A stretch of 64,000 bases of DNA from Candidatus Gastranaerophilales bacterium (lineage in GTDB: Bacteria; Cyanobacteriota; Vampirovibrionia; Gastranaerophilales; Gastranaerophilaceae). Below are positions 27,010-37,188 of this stretch, piece by piece; the first letter of the stretch is position 1, and every line of letters starts with the position of its first letter. Location: positions 1 to 64,000 of the forward strand of contig CALUWD010000003.1 of NCBI GenBank assembly GCA_944324385.1. The letters are read 5' to 3'. Below the pieces are notes generated by a model. It was not told the origin of the DNA. It saw only the letters and a list, made by a program, of their open reading frames with translations, and ran no database searches. Position numbers and translations under genes: made by a program.

Positions 27010-27759
27010 TTGATTTCAAGAAAGTCTCGTGAAGAATTAAAACTTATGCGTCATGCAGGCTCTATTGTAGCGCTTGTGCATCAAGAGATGAAAAAAGTAA
27101 TTTGCGAAGGTATTTCAACCCTTGAACTTGATGAAATAGCACACAGAATAATTAGAGAAAACAAGGCCATACCAACATTTTTAGGCTACCATGGTTTTCC
27201 TGGGTCAATTTGTGCTTCAATAAATGAGCAAGTTGTACATGGAATTCCTTCTAAAGATATAATCTTGCACTCAGGTGATATTGTTTCTATTGATGTAGGT
27301 GCAACTTTTCGTGGTCTTGTAGGGGACGGGGCTTGGACTTATCCTGTAGGAGAGATATCAGATGATAAAAAAATGCTTTTAGAAACTACCGAAAAAGCTC
27401 TAATGGCAGGTGTTGCAAGGATGATGAACGGGAATTTACTGGAAGAAGTGTCTGCTGCTATTGAAGATGTTGCGCTTTCAAAAAATCTTGGAATCGTTCG
27501 TCAATATGGTGGTCATGGGGTTGGACACAGTATGCATGAAGACCCTTTTGTCTTTAACTATCGCACAGGTAATAAAACAATCCTTAAAACAGGCATGACT
27601 ATTGCTATTGAGCCTATGTTAAACTTGGGCAAAGATGATGTTTATGTTTTGGACGACGATTGGACTGTTGTAACTGCTGATGATAAAGCTTCTGCACACT
27701 TTGAGCATACAGTTTTAGTGGGCGAAGACGGACCTGAAATTTTAACAAAATTAAGTTAA
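27010..27759 (+). CDS. map: Methionine aminopeptidase type I
   Basis: Map removes the initiator Met from new proteins. The 249-residue protein has the full set of metal ligands in DVGATFRGLVGDGAW (two Asp), GGHGVGHSMHEDPF (His), IAIEPML (Glu) and FEHTVLV (Glu). It starts with TTG at 27010 preceded by GGAAAA; MISRKSREELKLMRHAG matches the family N-terminus, so the rare start codon is probably right. It follows adk by nine bases. infA and rpmJ, often next, are absent: the gene converges with the nuclease gene and overlaps it by 9 bases. Confidence 0.96.
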   Translation: MISRKSREELKLMRHAGSIVALVHQEMKKVICEGISTLELDEIAHRIIRENKAIPTFLGYHGFPGSICASINEQVVHGIPSKDIILHSGDIVSIDVGATFRGLVGDGAWTYPVGEISDDKKMLLETTEKALMAGVARMMNGNLLEEVSAAIEDVALSKNLGIVRQYGGHGVGHSMHEDPFVFNYRTGNKTILKTGMTIAIEPMLNLGKDDVYVLDDDWTVVTADDKASAHFEHTVLVGEDGPEILTKLS

Positions 27760-28338
27760 ATATTTTTTTGGTAATTTTTTAACTATATTAAAAATCCTTT
27801 CTAAATAAGCGTTTTCGTCTTCAAAATTTGTTTGCGTTATTTGTTGATTTTCAAGCGATATGTATTTTATTGCAATATTTTTTGTATTAAAAATTTTTGA
27901 GGCGCAGTAAAGATAAACTATACTTTGTAAGTTATCCCGCGGATTTTGAGGGATATTTTTTGATTTCCAATCGTATATTGTGTATTTTTCCCCGTCTTTA
28001 AAAATTGCATCAAATCTGCCTGAAAGATAGAAAATTAAGTCATCTTTGCAACATTTTATTAAAAATGTTTCTTCTGATTTTATAAATTTTTCTTTCTCTT
28101 TAAAAATATCAAGTGTGAGAGTTTTTTCTAAAATTTCCTTTTCATCTCTATTAAGTGAGTTTGTCAATTTTGTTATGTCAAAACCCTTTAAGTAGTACGA
28201 AATCATAGCATGTAGGCGTTCTCCGCTTTTTGCACTTTGATTGTATGATAAAAAATCAAGATGCAAAATGTATTTATTTATAAAATCTTCAATATTTTTA
28301 TCCAGTAGTTTGAGTGAATTTACGCTAAACGTATTCAT
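27751..28338 (-). CDS. PD-(D/E)XK nuclease, RecB/Cas4-like
   Basis: The 195-residue protein carries the RecB-type nuclease motifs in order: a His in SGERLHAM (near 43), Asp in SGRFDAIF (110), YDWKSKN with the D-x-K pair (123-125), and Gln/Tyr in NLQSIVYLY (138-142). It is far smaller than AddA, AddB or RecB, whose nuclease domain it resembles. I chose the ATG at 28338 because GAGGTGG precedes it by four bases and it overlaps the helicase stop in ATGA. Tight coupling suggests it is the nuclease subunit of a complex with the large helicase. There are no Cys for a Cas4-like iron-sulfur cluster in the expected positions. Confidence 0.85.
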   Translation of the reverse strand: MNTFSVNSLKLLDKNIEDFINKYILHLDFLSYNQSAKSGERLHAMISYYLKGFDITKLTNSLNRDEKEILEKTLTLDIFKEKEKFIKSEETFLIKCCKDDLIFYLSGRFDAIFKDGEKYTIYDWKSKNIPQNPRDNLQSIVYLYCASKIFNTKNIAIKYISLENQQITQTNFEDENAYLERIFNIVKKLPKKYLT

Positions 28339-31300
28339 TTTGCCACCTCGTTTGTAAAAATTTCGCAAGGGTTTTGAGTTTTTTCTTTGTTGTACATTTT
28401 AAATGTTTTTGCGCAAGTTAAATAAAGTCTTATTTTTGCTCTTGTTATTCCCACATAAAACAATCTGTAATTTTCTTCAAGAATTTCCTGTTTTAAAGTT
28501 TCGCTTGTTTTTGGCTTTTGTTTTATTGATTGAATAAAATCGCTGCTTTCCTTTAGCTTAATGTCTTCAATTTTAAGCCCTAAATTATCTGCGCTCAGCT
28601 CAGGTATAAAGACAAAATCAAACTCATCCCCTTTTGACTTGTGTAATGTCATAACTTTTATTGTGTCAGTATTTTGTGTTTTTTCTTCGCTAAAGAATTT
28701 TGCACTTTTGTTTACCCTGTTTGAAATTTCATTTAACCTTAAAAGTGTTTGCTCAAAGCTTTTGTGGGTTTGATAAATTTTATCAACAATTGAATAAACC
28801 ATTGATACATTTGCAAATTCAAGGGTGTTTTTGTAGTAAAAATCGCCTATTTCAAGCACAAGCTCCATAGGGGTTAGCGTGCTTTTTAACAAAAAATATT
28901 TTAAATCCCACCAAAGAGAATATTTTGACCCTTCTTGCGATAAAAAGTCTTTATTTTGCGCATAGTTTAAAATTTCTCCTTCATCCTTGTATTGGGGCAT
29001 TTCAAGCATAATATTTAGGCACTTTTCAAGATTTTTCTTGCTTTTTGTGTCATTTATAAAGTTGAAAACAGCAAGAACTGTTTTAAACACAGGGTTATCA
29101 TTCAGTATATAGTTATCTTTTTGAACTTTTATATTTTTACCTTCTAAAAAATCGCAAAATGTTTTAATTTGCCAATTGCTTCTTAAAAGTATTCCTATAG
29201 TCTTTTGCGGATATTGTTTTTTTATTTTTGTTATTTTTTCAAAAATAAATTCCTTTTCATCTTGCGATTTTTCAAAAAGTTTCAGAGTTATTGCATCATT
29301 GTTATTGGCATTTTTCCCTTCTACAGGCTGCATTTTGATATTCAAAAATGCCTCAGGAGCAAGTTTTGAGGCTCTATCAATTATTTTATTGGCGTAATCA
29401 ATAATTTTTATTGCGCAGCGTTGTGATTTGTTCATCTCGACGTTAGGGTTTTCTTTTATAAATTTCTTAAATCCTTTGACATCAGAATTTGAAAAAGTTG
29501 CAGTAATTGCCTGGTTAACATCTCCGCATCTTATAATATTTCCCCATTTGCCGCCAATTAAGTTTAAAAGCTCTTGTTGAACAGGTGAGGAGTCTTGTGC
29601 TTCATCCTCAATTATTACCCTTGCAAGGTTTTGATAGTAATTAAGTACATCAGAATTTGTTTTTAAAAGTTTTAGGGCAAAAATTAAAAGGTCGTCATAA
29701 TCAAGGAAATTGTTTTCTTTCATTTCACTGTTATACGTGGTAAAAATTCTTTTAAAACTTGGGCTTTTGATATTTTTTAAATTTTCGCCATCGTTTTTAA
29801 AATCGCTTATAGCGCGCTCGTACAAGTCTGTTTTGCTGTAATCAAGCCCCGCATTAACTGTAGCGCTTGCAATGATTTCGCGTCTTTTATTTTCGTCTAT
29901 TATTTCAAAGTCGTTATCAAGGCCTAAAAAAGTATAGTTGTTGTTTTCTTTTAAAATTCTAAGCGCAAGACCATGGATTGTTGATATTTGAGGCATTTCA
30001 ACCATATCAGGATAATTTTGCTTAATTCTTTCTTTAAAATTTCTTGCCGCAGAATCCATAAAAGTCAGCACAAAGATGTTTTCGCTTTTAAGATTTTTTA
30101 TAATTTCGCCCTCAAGTAATTTAAAAATAAGCGCAAGCATAATTGTAGTTTTGCCTGAGCCTGCAACAGCACTTACTGCCATTTTGCCTGATTTGTATTC
30201 TAATACAGGTTTTTGGTCATCACGAGGGTTAATTTGCATGGATTTTTTAACTTTGTCAGTTTGAGCTATTGTGAAAAATTTGTCTATTGCGCCGAAATTT
30301 TCCATTCCCAAGGAGTCGTAAATGCTTGAATACACGTACATTTTCTCGCTCTGGCACAGGTAGAGTTTGTATAAAATTCTTGCAGTCCTGTCAAGAGTCA
30401 GCTCTATGTTGTCATTTGAGTTAAATTCATTTTTATTCCAATTTTTTTGAAATACCCATGAGTTGTAAAGCATTCCTATGTCTTGTTTTATCCAGTCAGA
30501 ATTTGAGCAATCCAACAAAAATAAATGTTTTACACAAATTTCGCTGTCAATTAATTTTTGCGCACTTGCGATGACTATTGAATTCTTAGGTATTTCATCC
30601 TCACTTAGCGGGTTTTCAGAAATAATTGTGTTTTCAAGTTGTTCAATGAGGGTGGTTTTTTGAAAATCTGAACCGAAAATATCTTCAAAATCGGCAATTT
30701 GTTTTGCAAGTTTATTTAACTTTAAAATGGCATTTTGGTTTTTAATGTCAATTTGTGTGTATTTTGTGCATATTTTGTAGAGTTGTTCGCTTAAGGGAGC
30801 ATTTTTTATTTCTTCAAGAAAGTTTAAAAAATCTTCAATATCAGGGTTTTTAATGTTTTTTAGATATTCTTTAACAAAAGTTTTATACTCTTGATTTTTG
30901 TATGCGTAATTTTGAGAAATTTCAATAGCTTCATCGCCATTAATTTTAAGGATTTCAAGGAGTATTCCTTTTAATATAAATGCGCTAAGGTAGCAGTCAT
31001 CTGTATTTGCAAGTTTTAAAATTTCTATAATCGCTCCTACATGCGGGTTTTGGTTTAATTTTTCACTACCGGATAAGAAAAAGACATCTTGTTTTATTTT
31101 ATTGAAACAAAAGCGCAAATACCTGTCGCAAAGGGGTGTCACAACTGCTATTTCATTTGGTTTGACCCCGTTTTTTATAAGGTTTTCTATTTGTTCAATT
31201 GTTTTAAAAATCATTTCATCTCTGCGCACAAACCCTTTTATATCAATATTTTTAGCTGAAACAGGGGTTTTGTTTTTGACATTTTCAAATATGTTTTTTG

Positions 31301-32105
31301 CGTTTTGTATTTTGATACTGTTCTCTCTTAAATCAATTGCCTTTTCGTTTAAAAATTTTTCAAAATCTATGTGTGTTGCGCTCAAATAGCCTAAACGCGA
31401 AGAACCGCAAGGGTCTTGAGCAACAAAAAATTCCTTAACATCTTTTTTAATGTGTTTTAAATATTCAAAGACAGCAGGTGTTATTTCATCCCCATCGTCT
31501 AAAATAACGTATTTATAAGGGTTTTTGACTTGTTTATACAAATATTCAAAAATGCTTACCTGTCTTAAATAGTCAAAAGCCCTATGCTCAAGAGTTTTGA
31601 GTTTATATAATTTTATAGCCTCTCTTACCTCGCTGCAGTAAGATTCATGTAAGATATTTTCACGAATTTTTATCTCATTATCACTAAGCGCATTTTGAAC
31701 AATTAGCGAGTAACGCCTTAAAAGCTGGTGTAAAAGGTTTACTTTAGAATTGTAGCCCTTAAATTCTATTTCTTTAATGCAGTTTTTAAAAATGTATTGC
31801 GACGCCTCAAGTCCGCAAAGATGCCCAAAAACACAAGGATTTGGATACCTTATGCTATTTTCGACATGTGCCCAATTTTTTTCAATAAAATTTCTTGCAA
31901 GTCCAAAAAAGCTAAATACGTTTAAATTTCCAATATTGCCAACAGGTGAATTTTTTTTTATTTTTTCAACAAAATTTTTCTTTTTTCTTCCGTTTTGAAC
32001 AAGGACAAGAATTTCGTCAGTATTGGCACCATTTTGAACAAGTTGCAAAAATTTTTCAACAAGGATATCTGTTTTATTTGAATTTATGGTTGAGTGTAAA
32101 ATCAT
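28335..32105 (-). CDS. Large SF1 helicase with AddB-like N-terminal half and UvrD/AddA-like C-terminal half
   Basis: The 1256-residue protein has two parts. The C-terminal half (from about 630) is an active UvrD-family helicase: Walker A AVAGSGKTTIM near 648, motif II IIEDEAQDSSPVQQELL near 835, GDVNQAITATFSNSD, TLHKSKGDEFDFVF and LFYVGITRAKIRLY. The N-terminal half looks like a degenerate second helicase: SNKTDIL where a P-loop should be, VILDDGDEITP like motif II, a late TARILYKLYLCQSEKMYVY like motif VI. This is the arrangement of AddB. Its stop overlaps the small nuclease and its start overlaps the priA stop, both by 4 bases. Most likely role: double-strand end processing for recombination, replacing AddAB/RecBCD. 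Confidence 0.85.
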   Translation of the reverse strand: MILHSTINSNKTDILVEKFLQLVQNGANTDEILVLVQNGRKKKNFVEKIKKNSPVGNIGNLNVFSFFGLARNFIEKNWAHVENSIRYPNPCVFGHLCGLEASQYIFKNCIKEIEFKGYNSKVNLLHQLLRRYSLIVQNALSDNEIKIRENILHESYCSEVREAIKLYKLKTLEHRAFDYLRQVSIFEYLYKQVKNPYKYVILDDGDEITPAVFEYLKHIKKDVKEFFVAQDPCGSSRLGYLSATHIDFEKFLNEKAIDLRENSIKIQNAKNIFENVKNKTPVSAKNIDIKGFVRRDEMIFKTIEQIENLIKNGVKPNEIAVVTPLCDRYLRFCFNKIKQDVFFLSGSEKLNQNPHVGAIIEILKLANTDDCYLSAFILKGILLEILKINGDEAIEISQNYAYKNQEYKTFVKEYLKNIKNPDIEDFLNFLEEIKNAPLSEQLYKICTKYTQIDIKNQNAILKLNKLAKQIADFEDIFGSDFQKTTLIEQLENTIISENPLSEDEIPKNSIVIASAQKLIDSEICVKHLFLLDCSNSDWIKQDIGMLYNSWVFQKNWNKNEFNSNDNIELTLDRTARILYKLYLCQSEKMYVYSSIYDSLGMENFGAIDKFFTIAQTDKVKKSMQINPRDDQKPVLEYKSGKMAVSAVAGSGKTTIMLALIFKLLEGEIIKNLKSENIFVLTFMDSAARNFKERIKQNYPDMVEMPQISTIHGLALRILKENNNYTFLGLDNDFEIIDENKRREIIASATVNAGLDYSKTDLYERAISDFKNDGENLKNIKSPSFKRIFTTYNSEMKENNFLDYDDLLIFALKLLKTNSDVLNYYQNLARVIIEDEAQDSSPVQQELLNLIGGKWGNIIRCGDVNQAITATFSNSDVKGFKKFIKENPNVEMNKSQRCAIKIIDYANKIIDRASKLAPEAFLNIKMQPVEGKNANNNDAITLKLFEKSQDEKEFIFEKITKIKKQYPQKTIGILLRSNWQIKTFCDFLEGKNIKVQKDNYILNDNPVFKTVLAVFNFINDTKSKKNLEKCLNIMLEMPQYKDEGEILNYAQNKDFLSQEGSKYSLWWDLKYFLLKSTLTPMELVLEIGDFYYKNTLEFANVSMVYSIVDKIYQTHKSFEQTLLRLNEISNRVNKSAKFFSEEKTQNTDTIKVMTLHKSKGDEFDFVFIPELSADNLGLKIEDIKLKESSDFIQSIKQKPKTSETLKQEILEENYRLFYVGITRAKIRLYLTCAKTFKMYNKEKTQNPCEIFTNEVAK

Positions 32106-34120
32106 AAAATATCGCTCGGATCAACGTCTACTATCATTTTTATTTCATTGTGCAGGCTTATTCTTCTTAAAAAGCCAAGTACAATATCATGTCCTTTTTG
32201 TTCTAATTTGTTTTTTATAAGTATGTTGTAGCGGTATTCGCCACGAATTTTTCCTATAACACAAGGAACAGGGCCAAGGGTTATTATTCTTTCATCAAGA
32301 GAAAGTTTTTTTATGTAATTTTCAAGATGCAGAGCAATTTCGCAGCAGGCATGTTCTGCCATAAAGTCCTCGCAAGAGCTTATAATTATCCTTATTATTT
32401 TTGAATATGGCGGGTAGTCATACTGTTCTCTTAATTCCAGTTCTTTTTCAAAAAAACTTAAATAATCCTGTTCTTTTGCCTTTTGCAATAATAAATTACC
32501 CTCGTTATAAGTTTGAAAAATAACCTTGCCCTTGTTTTTGCCTCTGCCCGAGCGTCCTGCAACTTGAGTAAGCAGGGAAAAACCACGCTCAGAGCTTCTA
32601 TAATCAGGCAAATTAAAGCTTAAATCTGCATTAATAACCCCAACAAGTGTAACATTAGGGTTATCCAGACCTTTTGCTATCATTTGTGTGCCAATTAAAA
32701 TATCTATTTCGCCATTTTGAAATTTTTGCAGAATTTCAATGTGTTCATTTTTTTTACTTAAACTGTCACTGTCAAGGCGCGCAATTCTCATACCTTCAAA
32801 AATTTTATTTGCTATTTCTTCAACTCTTTGCGAACCTGTACCAAAGTTTTCAAGTTCAACGCTAGAGCAGTTTTCGCACTTTGCAACTTTTGTTTCATAT
32901 CCGCAATAATGACATTTATATGAATTTGTTTGAGAGTGGTAAATTAATGGTATTGCGCATTTTTTGCACTCTAAAACCTCTCCACATTCCATGCATTGCG
33001 TGTAGCTTGAAAACCCGCGCCTATTTATTAAAAAAATTACCTGTTCGCCACGCTCAATTGTTTCTTTTGTTTTGTTAATAAGAGTGCGTGAGAATATACC
33101 TAAATTTCCATCCATCCTTTCACTTTTCATATCAATTATACTGACATCAGGCAACTGTGCGTTGTTGTACCTGTTTTTAAGTTCAAAAAGTGAATTTGTA
33201 TTTTGTGCTTCCCAAAAGCTTTCTACATCAGGAGTTGCGCTGCCTGAAATTATTTTTGCCCCGTAAAGTTGTGCAAGTTTTTTTGCAACATGTTTTGCGC
33301 AATATCTTGGATTGGGCATTGTTTGTTTGTAGCTTGTGTCGTGTTCTTCATCAATTATAATCAGCCCTAAGTTGTTAATTGGTGCAAAAACAGCAGAACG
33401 TGCACCAAAGAGTATTTTTATTTCGTTGTTTCTAAGTTTTTCCCAAACGCTGTATTTTTCAGCTTCAGAAATTGACGAGTGCCAGATGGCAACACTTTTA
33501 GAGCCAAAACGTCTTATTGTGCGCATTGTAAGTTGTGATACAAGCGCAATCTCAGGTGCCATAAAAAGCACATTTTTACCTTTTTTTATCGTATCTTCAA
33601 TAAGTTTAAAATATATTTCGGTTTTGCCTGAGCCTGTAATGCCATATAAAAGTGAGTTTTGAGCATTTACATGTTTAATTTCTTCATAAACCTTTTGTTG
33701 CTCGGGGCTTAGTTTATGTTCTGTTTGTTCAGTTTCTTCTTTTAATGCTGCATTTTCTTTTTTTGCTTTTCTATAGTTTTTTACGTTTTTTTCAAAAAAC
33801 TTTTGTGGCAATGCCGTCTTTAAAACTGTAGGCAAGTCGCAAAAGTAATAATTTGCGACCCATTCAAGCAGTTTTAAATATTCTAAATCAAATAATGGTT
33901 CACTCTCTAAAATATCGTCAATGTATTTTGCTTTAATGCCTTCTTCTAAATAATTTGAAAATCCTACAACATAGCCTTTTATTTTTCTTTTAGGCCCAAA
34001 AGGCACAACTACAGCTTGACCGATTTTAATTGTTTCTTTAAAATCATCAGGTATTAAATAGCTAAATGTTTTTGTGCCTAATTTTGCAACATCAACAAGG
34101 ACAAGAGCGTATTTGTACAT
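32102..34120 (-). CDS. priA: Primosomal replication restart helicase PriA
   Basis: PriA reloads the replisome at repaired forks. The 672-residue protein has the DNA-binding N-terminus, helicase Walker A GITGSGKTEIYFK, motif II IIDEEHDTSYKQ and GSATPDVES. Zinc-binding pairs follow in CMECGEVLECKKC and CHYCGYETKVAKCENC, then motifs V/VI (IGTQMIAKGLDNPNVTLVGV, QVAGRSGRG). The stop overlaps the helicase start in ATGA. Co-expression with polA and the helicase/nuclease pair makes this a repair and replication cluster. Confidence 0.97.
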   Translation of the reverse strand: MYKYALVLVDVAKLGTKTFSYLIPDDFKETIKIGQAVVVPFGPKRKIKGYVVGFSNYLEEGIKAKYIDDILESEPLFDLEYLKLLEWVANYYFCDLPTVLKTALPQKFFEKNVKNYRKAKKENAALKEETEQTEHKLSPEQQKVYEEIKHVNAQNSLLYGITGSGKTEIYFKLIEDTIKKGKNVLFMAPEIALVSQLTMRTIRRFGSKSVAIWHSSISEAEKYSVWEKLRNNEIKILFGARSAVFAPINNLGLIIIDEEHDTSYKQTMPNPRYCAKHVAKKLAQLYGAKIISGSATPDVESFWEAQNTNSLFELKNRYNNAQLPDVSIIDMKSERMDGNLGIFSRTLINKTKETIERGEQVIFLINRRGFSSYTQCMECGEVLECKKCAIPLIYHSQTNSYKCHYCGYETKVAKCENCSSVELENFGTGSQRVEEIANKIFEGMRIARLDSDSLSKKNEHIEILQKFQNGEIDILIGTQMIAKGLDNPNVTLVGVINADLSFNLPDYRSSERGFSLLTQVAGRSGRGKNKGKVIFQTYNEGNLLLQKAKEQDYLSFFEKELELREQYDYPPYSKIIRIIISSCEDFMAEHACCEIALHLENYIKKLSLDERIITLGPVPCVIGKIRGEYRYNILIKNKLEQKGHDIVLGFLRRISLHNEIKMIVDVDPSDIL

Positions 34121-34492
34121 TTAAAGCACCTTTTGCGGTATGTTTTTAATGTTCAGGTCAATTAAATCAAAGATACCTTTTTGAACTATAGTACCTTTTG
34201 AAAAATCACTATTTGCAGGCAAAATCTTTATATTTGAACTGGATGAACCTTCTTTTGAAATTGTTACTATATATTTATTTTTATTTGATGTTTGAAACAT
34301 TATGTAGCCGCTTTTAGACTGCATTTCAACAACTTCATATTGCCCTTGAGAATTAAGTGCGCTTAGGGTTAACATGTATAGATTGTCTGCACTTATAGGG
34401 TAATTTTTATTACAATTGGTAAGCATTGATTCGTTAGCAATTGCGCTTGATGACAAAAATATTATTCCAAGAGTTAAAAGAATTTTTTTCAT
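34121..34492 (-). CDS. Secreted protein of unknown function
   Basis: The 123-residue protein has a signal peptide (MKKILLTLGIIFLSSSAIA, cleavage probably before NES) and a small domain with strand-rich segments (YEVVEMQSKSGYIMFQTSNK) that I cannot assign. It follows polA with no gap and priA follows it with no gap, so it is translated within a DNA-repair operon although its product is periplasmic or outer membrane. Confidence 0.75.
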   Translation of the reverse strand: MKKILLTLGIIFLSSSAIANESMLTNCNKNYPISADNLYMLTLSALNSQGQYEVVEMQSKSGYIMFQTSNKNKYIVTISKEGSSSSNIKILPANSDFSKGTIVQKGIFDLIDLNIKNIPQKVL

Positions 34493-37159
34493 TTAATCCC
34501 CCTCTTTCCAAGTTCTACCATACTTTGTGCTAACTTTAAGCGGTACTTTTAGCGGTTGGTCTAATTCCATTGCTTTTATTGTTAAGGTTTTTACAGCTTC
34601 GAGTTCCTCTTTTTGAACTTCAAGAACAAGTTCATCGTGTACCTGTAAAATTATTTTTGATTTAAAATTCTTTAAATCGTTATGCAGCTTAACCATTGCC
34701 ATTTTAATTAAATCGGCACTTGTTCCCTGCAAGGGTGCATTAATTGCGGCACGTTGAGCAAATTCTCTTATTTTTGCGTTTCTCGAGTTTAACTCTGAGC
34801 CTAAATAACGTTTTCTGCCATAAAGTGTTTCAACATAACCTTCCTGATGTGCTTCAATTAAAGTGTTATTCATATAAGTGTTAATTTTAGGATAGGTGGC
34901 AAAATATTTATCTATAAATTCTTGTGCCTCAAATGGTGTTATATTTAGTACAGAAGCTAGTCCATAGCGTGTTTGACCGTATATAAGCCCAAAGTTAACA
35001 GCTTTGGCTTTTCTTCTCATTTCCTTTGTAACTTCATCTTTTTCAACTTCAAATATTTTTGATGCAGTTATAAGGTGTATATCTTCATCACTCTTAAATG
35101 CGTTAATTAGAACTTCATCTCCTGAAAAGTGCGCCAGCAGCCTTAGTTCAATTTGTGAGTAGTCAGCAGAAAATATAAAGGAGTTTTCTCTGTCAGTTGG
35201 TACAAAAGCTGCACGAATGCGATTTGAGAATTCTGTTCTTATTGGTATGTTTTGCAAATTTGGGTCTGAGCTTGATAATCTGCCTGTAGTTGTTACTATT
35301 TGATTAAAATGTGTGTGAATTTTTCCATCGTCTTTTGTAAGCTTTGGCAGGTTATCAATATATGTTGTTTTTAATTTCATTAATTGCCTGTGCTCTAAAA
35401 TATCACGTGCAATTTGGTGTTCAAGTGCAAGCTCATCCAGAATTTTTGCTGATGTTGAGTACCCTGTTTTATTTTTTTTGGAAGGTTTTATTTGTAGTGT
35501 GTTAAAAAGTACATCTGCAACCTGTTTTGGCGAATTTATATTAAATGTAGTGCCTGCCTGTTTGTATATTTTTTCTTCAAAATCAAGAATTTTTTTATCT
35601 ATTTCAACACTTAAGGTCTTTAAGTAGTCAACATCAAGGCTAACGCCTGTGTCTTCAATATCTTTTAAAACATACGCCAGAGGTAGTTCTGTTTCATCTA
35701 ACAGCTTTTTTTCTTTTTCATTAAGTGAGGTTTTATAAAATTCGTGCAGTTTTAAAATATTTCTTGTAAGCTTGTAACCGTCATTTTCATCAGGCATAAA
35801 ATTAAGGTAATTTTGAATTTGTGAAATTAAATCATGCTTTCTTGAGGAGTCTTTAATATAACTTGAGAGCATTACATCTTCAATTACGCCTTTTGGATTT
35901 ATATAATTTAGCTCGCTTTTAATATCGTAGACAATTTTTTTTATTTTTTCATTTTCAAGAATTTCTACAACTTTTTTGTCATCTTTTTTTAAAAGCGCGC
36001 AAGTATTGTTGTGTGCAAGATAAAGCGAATTTGGCATTTGCGGCAAAATTGCAGAAATTGCTACTGTGTCATTTTCTTTTATAGTGTCTAAAAAAGCACT
36101 TGCCTCCTTGGTTGTGTCTAATTTTGTAATTTCTTCATCTTCTTTTGTTTCTTGTGCAAAAAGTCCCAGCTGTATTTGCTCTTGAGGTTCATCTTCTTTT
36201 ATGGTTACAAAACTTTGTTGTTCTGTATCTTCGCAGCTTGTTTCAAAGGGCTTTAGGAGTTTATCTATATTTTTTACAAAGCTGTAAAATTGAACACTCT
36301 GGAAAAAATCAATAACACTTTGCTTGTTTGGTATTTCAAGGCAAGTTCTTGAAAAATCAAAATCAATTTCAACATCTTTTTTTATGGTTGCAAGGAATTG
36401 CGAAAGATATGCCATTTCCTTTTGTTCAATAAGTTTTTCTTTAATTGCTTTTTTAGTTATATTTTCTATATTTTCATAAACACCATCGAGTGTTTTGTAT
36501 TCCCCTAAAAGCCATTGAGCTGTTTTTGCACCTATTCCTTTTACCCCCGGGATATTGTCTGAGCTATCTCCGCAAAGTGCCTTGTAGTCTATAACTTGCT
36601 GTGGTGTAACACCCATATTTTCAAAAACTTGCTCCCAGCCATAGCAGTTAAGTTCACCTTTTTGAGGTATTAAAACATTGATAAAATCTTCTTTGTCCAC
36701 AAGTTGAAAACTGTCTTTATCTCCTGTTAAAATATAGGTTTTATGCCCCATTTGTTTTGCTTTTAGGGAAATTGTACCTATTATATCATCACCTTCAAAG
36801 CCTTCTTTTGTGTAAATCGGTATGTTTAGAGCCTTTAAGCCTTCCATAATGAGCGAGAGCTGAGAGCGTAAAGCGTCAGGCATGGTTTGTCTGTTTGCCT
36901 TGTAATCTTCATATTTTTCAAGACGAAAAGTGTGCCTTGAAACATCAAAAGCAACAGCAATAGAGTTTGGTTTAATGTTTTTTCCGCCCTTAGAGGATGA
37001 AGATAAAAGGTCGAAAATTGCCTTAAAAAACCCGTAAATTGCCCAGGTGGGTTGATGTTCCGTTGTTTGCATGTTTGTGCGCTCAAGGGCAAAAAACATC
37101 CTAAAAGCAAGTGCATGACCGTCAATTAATATTAATGTTTTTTTCTCCTCGCTATTCAT
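34493..37159 (-). CDS. polA: DNA polymerase I
   Basis: The 888-residue protein has three parts. The N-terminal 5'-3' nuclease (LILIDGHALAFRMFFAL, EGFEDDIIGT-like FEGDDIIGT, the H3TH block GVKGIGAKTAQWLL) is intact. The middle 3'-5' exonuclease-like domain has TVAISAILPQ where the DxE of a proofreading enzyme should be, so proofreading is probably lost. The polymerase is intact, with motif A FSADYSQIELRLLAH, motif B RRKAKAVNFGLIYGQ and motif C LQVHDELVLEV. I chose the ATG at 37159, with GAGGA before it, rather than a GTG three codons upstream. Confidence 0.97.
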   Translation of the reverse strand: MNSEEKKTLILIDGHALAFRMFFALERTNMQTTEHQPTWAIYGFFKAIFDLLSSSSKGGKNIKPNSIAVAFDVSRHTFRLEKYEDYKANRQTMPDALRSQLSLIMEGLKALNIPIYTKEGFEGDDIIGTISLKAKQMGHKTYILTGDKDSFQLVDKEDFINVLIPQKGELNCYGWEQVFENMGVTPQQVIDYKALCGDSSDNIPGVKGIGAKTAQWLLGEYKTLDGVYENIENITKKAIKEKLIEQKEMAYLSQFLATIKKDVEIDFDFSRTCLEIPNKQSVIDFFQSVQFYSFVKNIDKLLKPFETSCEDTEQQSFVTIKEDEPQEQIQLGLFAQETKEDEEITKLDTTKEASAFLDTIKENDTVAISAILPQMPNSLYLAHNNTCALLKKDDKKVVEILENEKIKKIVYDIKSELNYINPKGVIEDVMLSSYIKDSSRKHDLISQIQNYLNFMPDENDGYKLTRNILKLHEFYKTSLNEKEKKLLDETELPLAYVLKDIEDTGVSLDVDYLKTLSVEIDKKILDFEEKIYKQAGTTFNINSPKQVADVLFNTLQIKPSKKNKTGYSTSAKILDELALEHQIARDILEHRQLMKLKTTYIDNLPKLTKDDGKIHTHFNQIVTTTGRLSSSDPNLQNIPIRTEFSNRIRAAFVPTDRENSFIFSADYSQIELRLLAHFSGDEVLINAFKSDEDIHLITASKIFEVEKDEVTKEMRRKAKAVNFGLIYGQTRYGLASVLNITPFEAQEFIDKYFATYPKINTYMNNTLIEAHQEGYVETLYGRKRYLGSELNSRNAKIREFAQRAAINAPLQGTSADLIKMAMVKLHNDLKNFKSKIILQVHDELVLEVQKEELEAVKTLTIKAMELDQPLKVPLKVSTKYGRTWKEGD

Positions 37160-37188
37160 TTTCCTCACCCTTTTTATTTTATTTTACA

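Follow-up and report, generated by a model that had tools for sequence, protein, structure and literature searches.

A fused two-half helicase and a separate small nuclease as a probable DNA-end resection machine in Candidatus Gastranaerophilales

In the RecBCD enzyme, one active motor of superfamily 1A (SF1A) works together with an inactivated helicase, RecC, and a nuclease that acts on the unwound strands. Both subunits of AdnAB carry a motor and a nuclease, and the genes of AddAB stand in the order addB-addA in Bacillus and other Firmicutes. Here we describe a gene pair in a 64,000-nucleotide stretch of Candidatus Gastranaerophilales DNA (contig CALUWD010000003.1 of assembly GCA_944324385.1; hereafter the window), in which a fused helicase of 1256 residues is followed by a nuclease of 195 residues whose start overlaps the helicase stop as ATGA (Table 1). 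The class of the named relatives (Candidatus Gastranaerophilales, Vampirovibrio) is taken here to be Vampirovibrionia (Melainabacteria). The pair probably resects DNA ends as AddAB and RecBCD do, with an architecture of its own, and the double-strand-end role is proposed from this architecture, from the co-occurrence of the parts and from their complementary distribution with RecC.

The C-terminal half of the helicase (C-half) matched PF00580 with 175 bits and UvrD_C with 107.5 bits. Motif conservation was counted over the full-length fused relatives, whose 85 records include three duplicates and thus give 82 distinct proteins. EDEAQD of motif II and the motif V box were found in all 82, and the P-loop (motif I) and motif VI in 81 each; the single P-loop miss, L170, has a large insertion that shifts the P-loop outside the scanned slice, and the single motif VI miss, L168, has a broken frame. 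With motifs I, II, V and VI intact, the C-half is predicted to be an active-type SF1A motor. By sequence, the full-length profile matched UvrD, PcrA and Rep best, and both PcrA and Rep outscored AddA. None of three NCBIfam equivalog cut-offs was reached, namely those of AddA (87.5 vs. 707.65 bits), RecB (83.8 vs. 696.05 bits) and PcrA (172.9 vs. 911.2 bits).

The N-terminal half (N-half) alone matched PF00580 (UvrD_N) with 29.7 bits against a gathering cut-off of 23, and the same model matched 25 of 44 aligned N-halves at E ≤ 0.1. Profile-profile comparison of the two halves with hhalign gave a probability of 95.3 and an E-value of 2e-8 over 364 columns. An AlphaFold2 (AF2) model of the N-half, built from the 44 aligned sequences, reached a predicted local distance difference test score (pLDDT) of 88.8 and a predicted template modelling score (pTM) of 0.85. 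With the whole model covered, Foldseek returned template modelling scores (TM-scores) of 0.65 for UvrD (4c2t_A), 0.66 for AddB (3u44_B) and 0.71 for the AdnB motor (6ppr_B), the last being the highest. VIA-align gave Z 29.6 for UvrD (9.5 Å over 525 residues), 24.3 for AdnB (4.2 Å over 567 residues) and 22.4 for AddB (5.2 Å over 567 residues), so that Z puts UvrD/PcrA above AdnB and AddB, whereas the root-mean-square deviation (rmsd) over more residues favours the latter two. As modelled, the N-half is an SF1A helicase fold, and a non-helicase N-half was ruled out by the AF2 model together with the Foldseek and VIA matches. Because VIA Z and rmsd favour different members, the modelled fold leaves the ancestry of the N-half among SF1A members undecided, at about equal distance from UvrD, AdnB and AddB.

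Decay of the N-half motifs was evident in the alignments. The P-loop pattern, reading STINSNKT in the window, is kept in only 21 of the 82 fused relatives and in 12 of 16 stand-alone N-half homologues (the four without it being L211, L216, L273 and L274), and motif II, DDGDE in the window, is DDxDE or similar in most aligned rows. Such decay fits a half that no longer translocates, although nucleotide binding may persist in some lineages. The initial annotation had read the protein as two SF1 halves in one chain, the first degenerate and the second intact, and this is borne out by the PF00580 matches in both halves, the hhalign result, the N-half fold and the motif counts across the family. 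Its label of an "AddB-type" helicase half held in part: the helicase fold stood and an AddB identity is not supported by sequence, as AddB models matched none of the 44 N-halves at E ≤ 0.1 and UvrD and AdnB are about equally close. An AF2 model of residues 1-1200 (pLDDT 85.2, pTM 0.78) suggests a defined packing of the two halves; it is compatible with packed halves and is not in itself evidence for an AddAB-like interface. Compared with a viral structure library, this model matched ordinary helicases. Separately, a DUF559 domain (PF04480, restriction-endonuclease-like) was found inserted in the N-half near the position of window-protein residues 250-270 in three members of genera g7 and g15.

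The small nuclease matched PF12705 with 36.2 bits against a cut-off of 22. The RecB-family motif residues H, D, D, K, Q and Y (H, D, D/E-x-K, Q-x3-Y) are invariant in the alignment and kept in all 57 nucleases that adjoin a helicase gene (one duplicate record, L038/L087, included), in agreement with the intact RecB-nuclease motifs annotated initially for a separate protein with an ATGA overlap. The four iron-sulfur (Fe-S) cysteines of the Cas4/AddB type are all present in 43 of the 57 and all absent from the other 14, without intermediates, and the window nuclease, which has none, belongs to the group of 14. This all-or-none loss with a preserved active site is thus seen in the window and 13 relatives, a clade in which the pair lies directly behind priA in 13 of 14 loci (the exception being L015); priA was upstream in none of the other loci having at least 600 bases there.

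The fused protein was found in 142 of the 146 genomes of the order, which ruled out an assembly artefact or a chance fusion. Across the class, 119 of 194 genomes matched the N-half at E ≤ 1e-5, a count that includes background, and strong matches came from families f1, f6, f9, f14 and f15 among those drawn. A survey of gene pairing, proposed along with the initial annotation, found the nuclease directly downstream in 57 of the 88 loci that extend past the helicase stop and not in the remaining 31, two of which had fewer than 200 bases left. The nuclease was then sought in fifty genomes, 46 of them helicase-positive, picked to include those without a neighbouring nuclease; an orthologue (E ≤ 1e-30), adjacent or elsewhere, was present in 38, and of the 12 genomes without one, eight belong to genera g17 and g20 and the other four had already lacked a helicase match in the order survey. 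As a separate observation, genera g14 and g17 (L196, L197, L202, L203) carry a two-gene AddAB-like pair, consisting of an 854-936-residue protein with a C-terminal PDDEXK domain and a UvrD-like protein of 816-1125 residues; in L202 a gene that resembles recA by its sequence is close to this pair.

The N-half profile also found separate open reading frames (ORFs), most of them 670-750 residues long, in other classes of the phylum. In L211, L272, L273, L274 and L276 the N-half gene immediately precedes a C-half gene; in the first three of these the nuclease gene comes directly next, and the contigs of L274 and L276 end first. These five genomes belong, as we infer here and below for the labels photosynthetic and non-photosynthetic, to non-photosynthetic lineages. 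At 14 other N-half loci neither partner adjoined, and the genes appear to be dispersed in photosynthetic cyanobacteria. Plasmid records gave matches from Salinibacter and Ilyobacter only, and phage records gave none to the cyanobacterial N-half. On plasmid pSR56 of Salinibacter ruber M8, SRM_RS00110 (hypothetical), SRM_RS00115 (helicase) and SRM_RS00120 (nuclease) precede recJ, and the cyanobacterial-family profiles matched the N-half, C-half and nuclease with E-values of 4e-97, 3e-153 and 2e-52, respectively. With pSR56 included, the nuclease is present in four of six three-gene-type loci and the remaining two hit a contig edge. In Ilyobacter polytropus an N-half homologue was found, with the C-half and nuclease not adjoining.

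To place the C-half, we relied on two quick trees without bootstrap. In the first, of 65 helicase halves, 17 fused C-halves, five operon C-halves and 11 dispersed cyanobacterial C-halves share one side of a branch with a Shimodaira-Hasegawa-like approximate likelihood ratio test (SH-aLRT) value of 100; on the other side lie Firmicutes AddA, the AddA-like proteins of g14 and g17, and the two further UvrD-like proteins of this genome, UvrD/PcrA and the UvrD-nuclease fusion. The fused C-halves form one group inside the C-half clade (SH-aLRT 98). In the second tree, to which Salinibacter was added and from which L032, L101, L120, L130, L156 and L274 were left out, all 31 rows of the system fell together (SH-aLRT 100). 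Because the fused rows form one group inside a clade with separate C-half genes, the fusion of the helicase halves is most simply a derived state that arose in Vampirovibrionia. The nuclease is already a separate gene in the three-gene form; the "detached" nuclease of the initial annotation therefore has the direction reversed for this family, in which it is the helicase halves that were joined. In scans of stand-alone N-halves (L209, L211, L213, L219 and Salinibacter), no Pfam match exceeded its cut-off and none to NCBIfam reached E ≤ 0.01; automatic annotation would therefore miss the set.

Co-occurrence was assessed in 292 genomes, of which 243 were positive for the N-half, 236 for the nuclease and 40 for RecC. 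Among the 156 phylum genomes outside the window's class, 112 had both N-half and nuclease, 39 had neither, three had the N-half only and two the nuclease only. RecC was found in 35 of the 39 genomes with neither, in none of the five with one only and in five of the 112 with both, that is, in 35 of 41 N-half-negative vs. five of 115 N-half-positive genomes. The available part of PMC5101192 reports recC from no cyanobacteria other than marine Synechococcus and Prochlorococcus, with recBCD incomplete in model strains.

In the mechanism that we propose, the C-half would be the only likely 3'-5' single-stranded DNA motor and, starting at a double-strand end, would pull on the 3'-ended strand. The inactivated N-half probably packs against it, holding and threading the unwound strand. 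By analogy with AddB and RecC, in which the corresponding site of the inactive half reads Chi (PMC4824097, in its available part), the N-half may scan the strand for a Chi-like sequence. The separate RecB-family nuclease would cut the unwound DNA in trans, leaving a 3' tail for RecA. Three separate genes in one operon would be the ancestral state, with the halves fused in Vampirovibrionia and the genes dispersed in photosynthetic cyanobacteria. The nuclease is a free subunit, and unwinding without cutting would therefore be possible in principle; genera g17 and g20 may work in this way.

The trio probably carries out, in most of the cyanobacterial phylum, the broken-DNA processing done by RecBCD in E. 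coli. A wider proposal, which we regard as evenly poised between right and wrong when taken whole, is that these genes encode a previously undescribed three-subunit RecBCD equivalent ancestral to Cyanobacteriota. It would have three parts: an inactivated helicase that often keeps a P-loop and might scan sequence in an ATP-dependent manner, one SF1A motor, and a free-standing RecB-family nuclease able to dock or leave. It would have been replaced by true RecBCD in one small-genome family (probably Prochlorococcus/marine Synechococcus) and fused into one motor chain in Vampirovibrionia, and it would be present in at least one other phylum, on the Salinibacter plasmid. A search of the open-licence literature found no paper on this three-gene set.

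Several observations weigh against a dedicated resection machine of this kind. The Fisher p-values for N-half with nuclease (1e-30) and for N-half against RecC (3e-23) ignore relatedness, and 35 of the 40 RecC genomes belong to one family, f41, which we take to be Prochlorococcus/marine Synechococcus from its genome sizes of 1.6-3.7 Mb and its RecC. Because all 35 RecC genomes without the set are from f41, the safe reading is that the complementarity reflects mainly one evolutionary event, in which one lineage appears to have replaced the set by RecBCD, and that N-half and nuclease appear to have been lost together; the recC distribution in PMC5101192, as far as that part of the source goes, fits the f41 pattern. 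Five genomes have RecC as well as N-half and nuclease matches, of which the four from f18 match more weakly (N-half E 7e-39 to 2e-65, nuclease E 8e-19 to 5e-23) and the fifth, G276, has 9% contamination. Within the class, families f8 and f10-f13 gave no strong N-half match, only background level at most. Eight helicase-positive genomes, of g17 and g20, lack the small nuclease, so the helicase can apparently persist without it, and g17 also carries the separate AddAB-like pair. The available part of PMC5704561 describes operons, mostly from Clostridiales and proposed to act in DNA repair, in which uvrD and cas4-like genes stand unfused. Synechococcus elongatus is stated to encode AddAB in the accessible text of PMC10269773; the gene so annotated might be the C-half gene. 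Moreover, the genome of the window encodes a UvrD-nuclease fusion (L003) that is another candidate resection enzyme. Separately, four genomes of family f12 (G150, G155, G165 and G169) had no N-half, nuclease or RecC match, and nine f12 genomes, those four included, had no PDDEXK_1 match; this family may have no such machine.

Among other explanations, a diverged AddAB rearranged in cyanobacteria, in which N-half and C-half descend from AddB and AddA, respectively, and the nuclease from an AddAB nuclease domain, would account for a gene order like that of addB-addA in Firmicutes, for the pairing of an inactivated with an active SF1A half and for the Fe-S type cysteines of most nuclease relatives; AddB and AdnB are also among the best whole-fold matches and AddA is among the sequence matches. 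We consider it unlikely, as Firmicutes AddA falls outside the C-half clade, AddB models leave the N-half unmatched, and the AddA score lies far below its cut-off, with PcrA and Rep scoring above it.

The coupling to priA in the window's clade and the retention of the helicase without nuclease in g17 and g20 would instead suit a recombination or replication-restart helicase acting with PriA at gaps or forks, with the nuclease as a helper. However, priA adjoins in only 13 loci of one clade and the complementary distribution is with RecC, which makes this role very unlikely. That the pair serves in anti-phage defence, as a relative of Gabija or of another helicase-nuclease system, is highly improbable: it is near-universal in the order, present in most of the phylum and set in a polA-priA housekeeping context in one clade. 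GajB models were the best PADLOC matches of the C-half (E 2e-44), a result that would be expected of any UvrD-like helicase; the Cas4-type nuclease and the one system copy on a plasmid also point toward defence.

The genome of the window (G000) encodes two other UvrD-like proteins, a UvrD/PcrA with a tudor domain (L002) and the 1023-residue UvrD-PDDEXK fusion L003, and only two PDDEXK_1 matches, L003 and the small nuclease. RecC (PF04257) gave no match; AddAB was not found, and an AddB without a PF12705-detectable nuclease could have escaped this search. No RecD-like partner turned up, with no search aimed at RecD. On these grounds we rejected the idea that the genome encodes a full AddAB or RecBCD at another site. 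This was one of two findings named as refuting the initial annotation; the other, a non-helicase fold of the N-half, was not borne out either. In the tree, L003 (L003:592-3663) groups with proteins of Kaiserbacteria, Peregrinibacteria and WWE3.

The nuclease ORF spans 27751-28368 on the minus strand, and its start ATG at 28338 gives the 195-residue protein. Within 27751-37168, polA, a 123-residue orphan, priA, the helicase and the nuclease form one run with little or no spacing, and this packing suggests one operon. L097 shows the whole order as in the window. A Pfam scan of the 123-residue protein gave no match, and polA and map are presumptive gene names given here to nearby ORFs.

Table 1. 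Positions of the helicase-nuclease pair, its motifs, neighbouring genes and selected related loci (window coordinates unless a locus is given).
Feature	Position	Strand	Basis or remark
Fused helicase gene, 1256 residues	28335-32105	minus	ORF list
Small nuclease gene, 195 residues, PD-(D/E)XK RecB-family	27751-28338	minus	PF12705; catalytic-residue and cysteine survey
N-half, residues 1-618, degenerate SF1A helicase fold	30252..32105	minus	PF00580, AF2, Foldseek/VIA, stand-alone cyanobacterial homologues
Decayed N-half P-loop STINSNKT, residues 5-12	32070..32093	minus	alignments
Degenerate N-half motif II DDGDE, residues 203-207	31485..31499	minus	alignments; D206 invariant
C-half, residues 619-1256, SF1A motor with intact motifs	28335..30251	minus	PF00580, UvrD_C, motif counts, clade
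C-half motif I AVAGSGKT, residues 646-653	30147..30170	minus	invariant columns
C-half motif II EDEAQD, residues 833-838	29592..29609	minus	invariant columns; 82/82
C-half motif V region HKSKG, residues 1155-1159	28629..28643	minus	invariant columns; motif counts
C-half motif VI YVGITRAK, residues 1217-1224	28434..28457	minus	invariant columns; motif counts
priA	32102..34120	minus	directly upstream of helicase gene, ATGA overlap; Pfam PriA domains
123-residue protein, no family assigned	34121..34492	minus	between polA and priA
polA	34493..37168	minus	start of tightly packed run; ORF; named from sequence, without family call
DUF559 insertion members	L055:2560-7011; L170:2330-7060; L171:2105-6535		
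Salinibacter three-gene set on plasmid pSR56	L292 6770-14653		recJ after

If the trio is the cyanobacterial end-resection enzyme, three genes can be named for knock-out in Synechocystis or S. elongatus. Model cyanobacteria are naturally transformed and are engineered by recombination, and the finding, if true, would bear on genome engineering with linear DNA in these organisms. It would also add an architecture, with the nuclease in trans and the inactivated half fused or free, for the study of how Chi-type regulation evolved, and a cell that lost the trans-acting nuclease subunit could thereby uncouple unwinding from cutting.

Compared with known systems, the protein is closest to UvrD, PcrA and Rep by its full-length-profile matches and, for the N-half, by VIA Z, whereas the genome's own UvrD/PcrA (L002) sits in another clade. 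UvrD-Cas4 fusions and operons likewise join a UvrD-like helicase with a Cas4-type nuclease (PMC5704561, available part), but the inactivated N-half partner and the cyanobacterial set are unmentioned in that part of the source, and the fusion type is represented here by the separate protein L003. Unlike Cas4 and other Fe-S PDDEXK nucleases, the window nuclease has none of the four cysteines. In Gabija the partner is GajA, an OLD-family nuclease; the partner identified here by its Pfam match is a PDDEXK nuclease. The AdnB motor had the top Foldseek TM-score with the N-half; unlike in AdnAB, neither half carries a nuclease, none having been found within the 1256-residue protein by Pfam scan. With RecBCD the system shares one SF1A motor, one inactivated helicase and a nuclease, but this genome has no RecC match and the nuclease is not fused to the motor. 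AddAB carries nuclease domains at the C-terminus of both subunits, whereas here there is one small separate nuclease, the halves are fused (they are separate genes in relatives) and the C-half falls outside the Firmicutes AddA rows (SH-aLRT 100, with few AddA rows sampled). The likeness to AddAB (RexAB) lies in the combination of an inactivated SF1 half, a predicted active SF1A motor and a RecB-family nuclease, and in an N-half fold that matches AddB over 567 residues at 5.2 Å.

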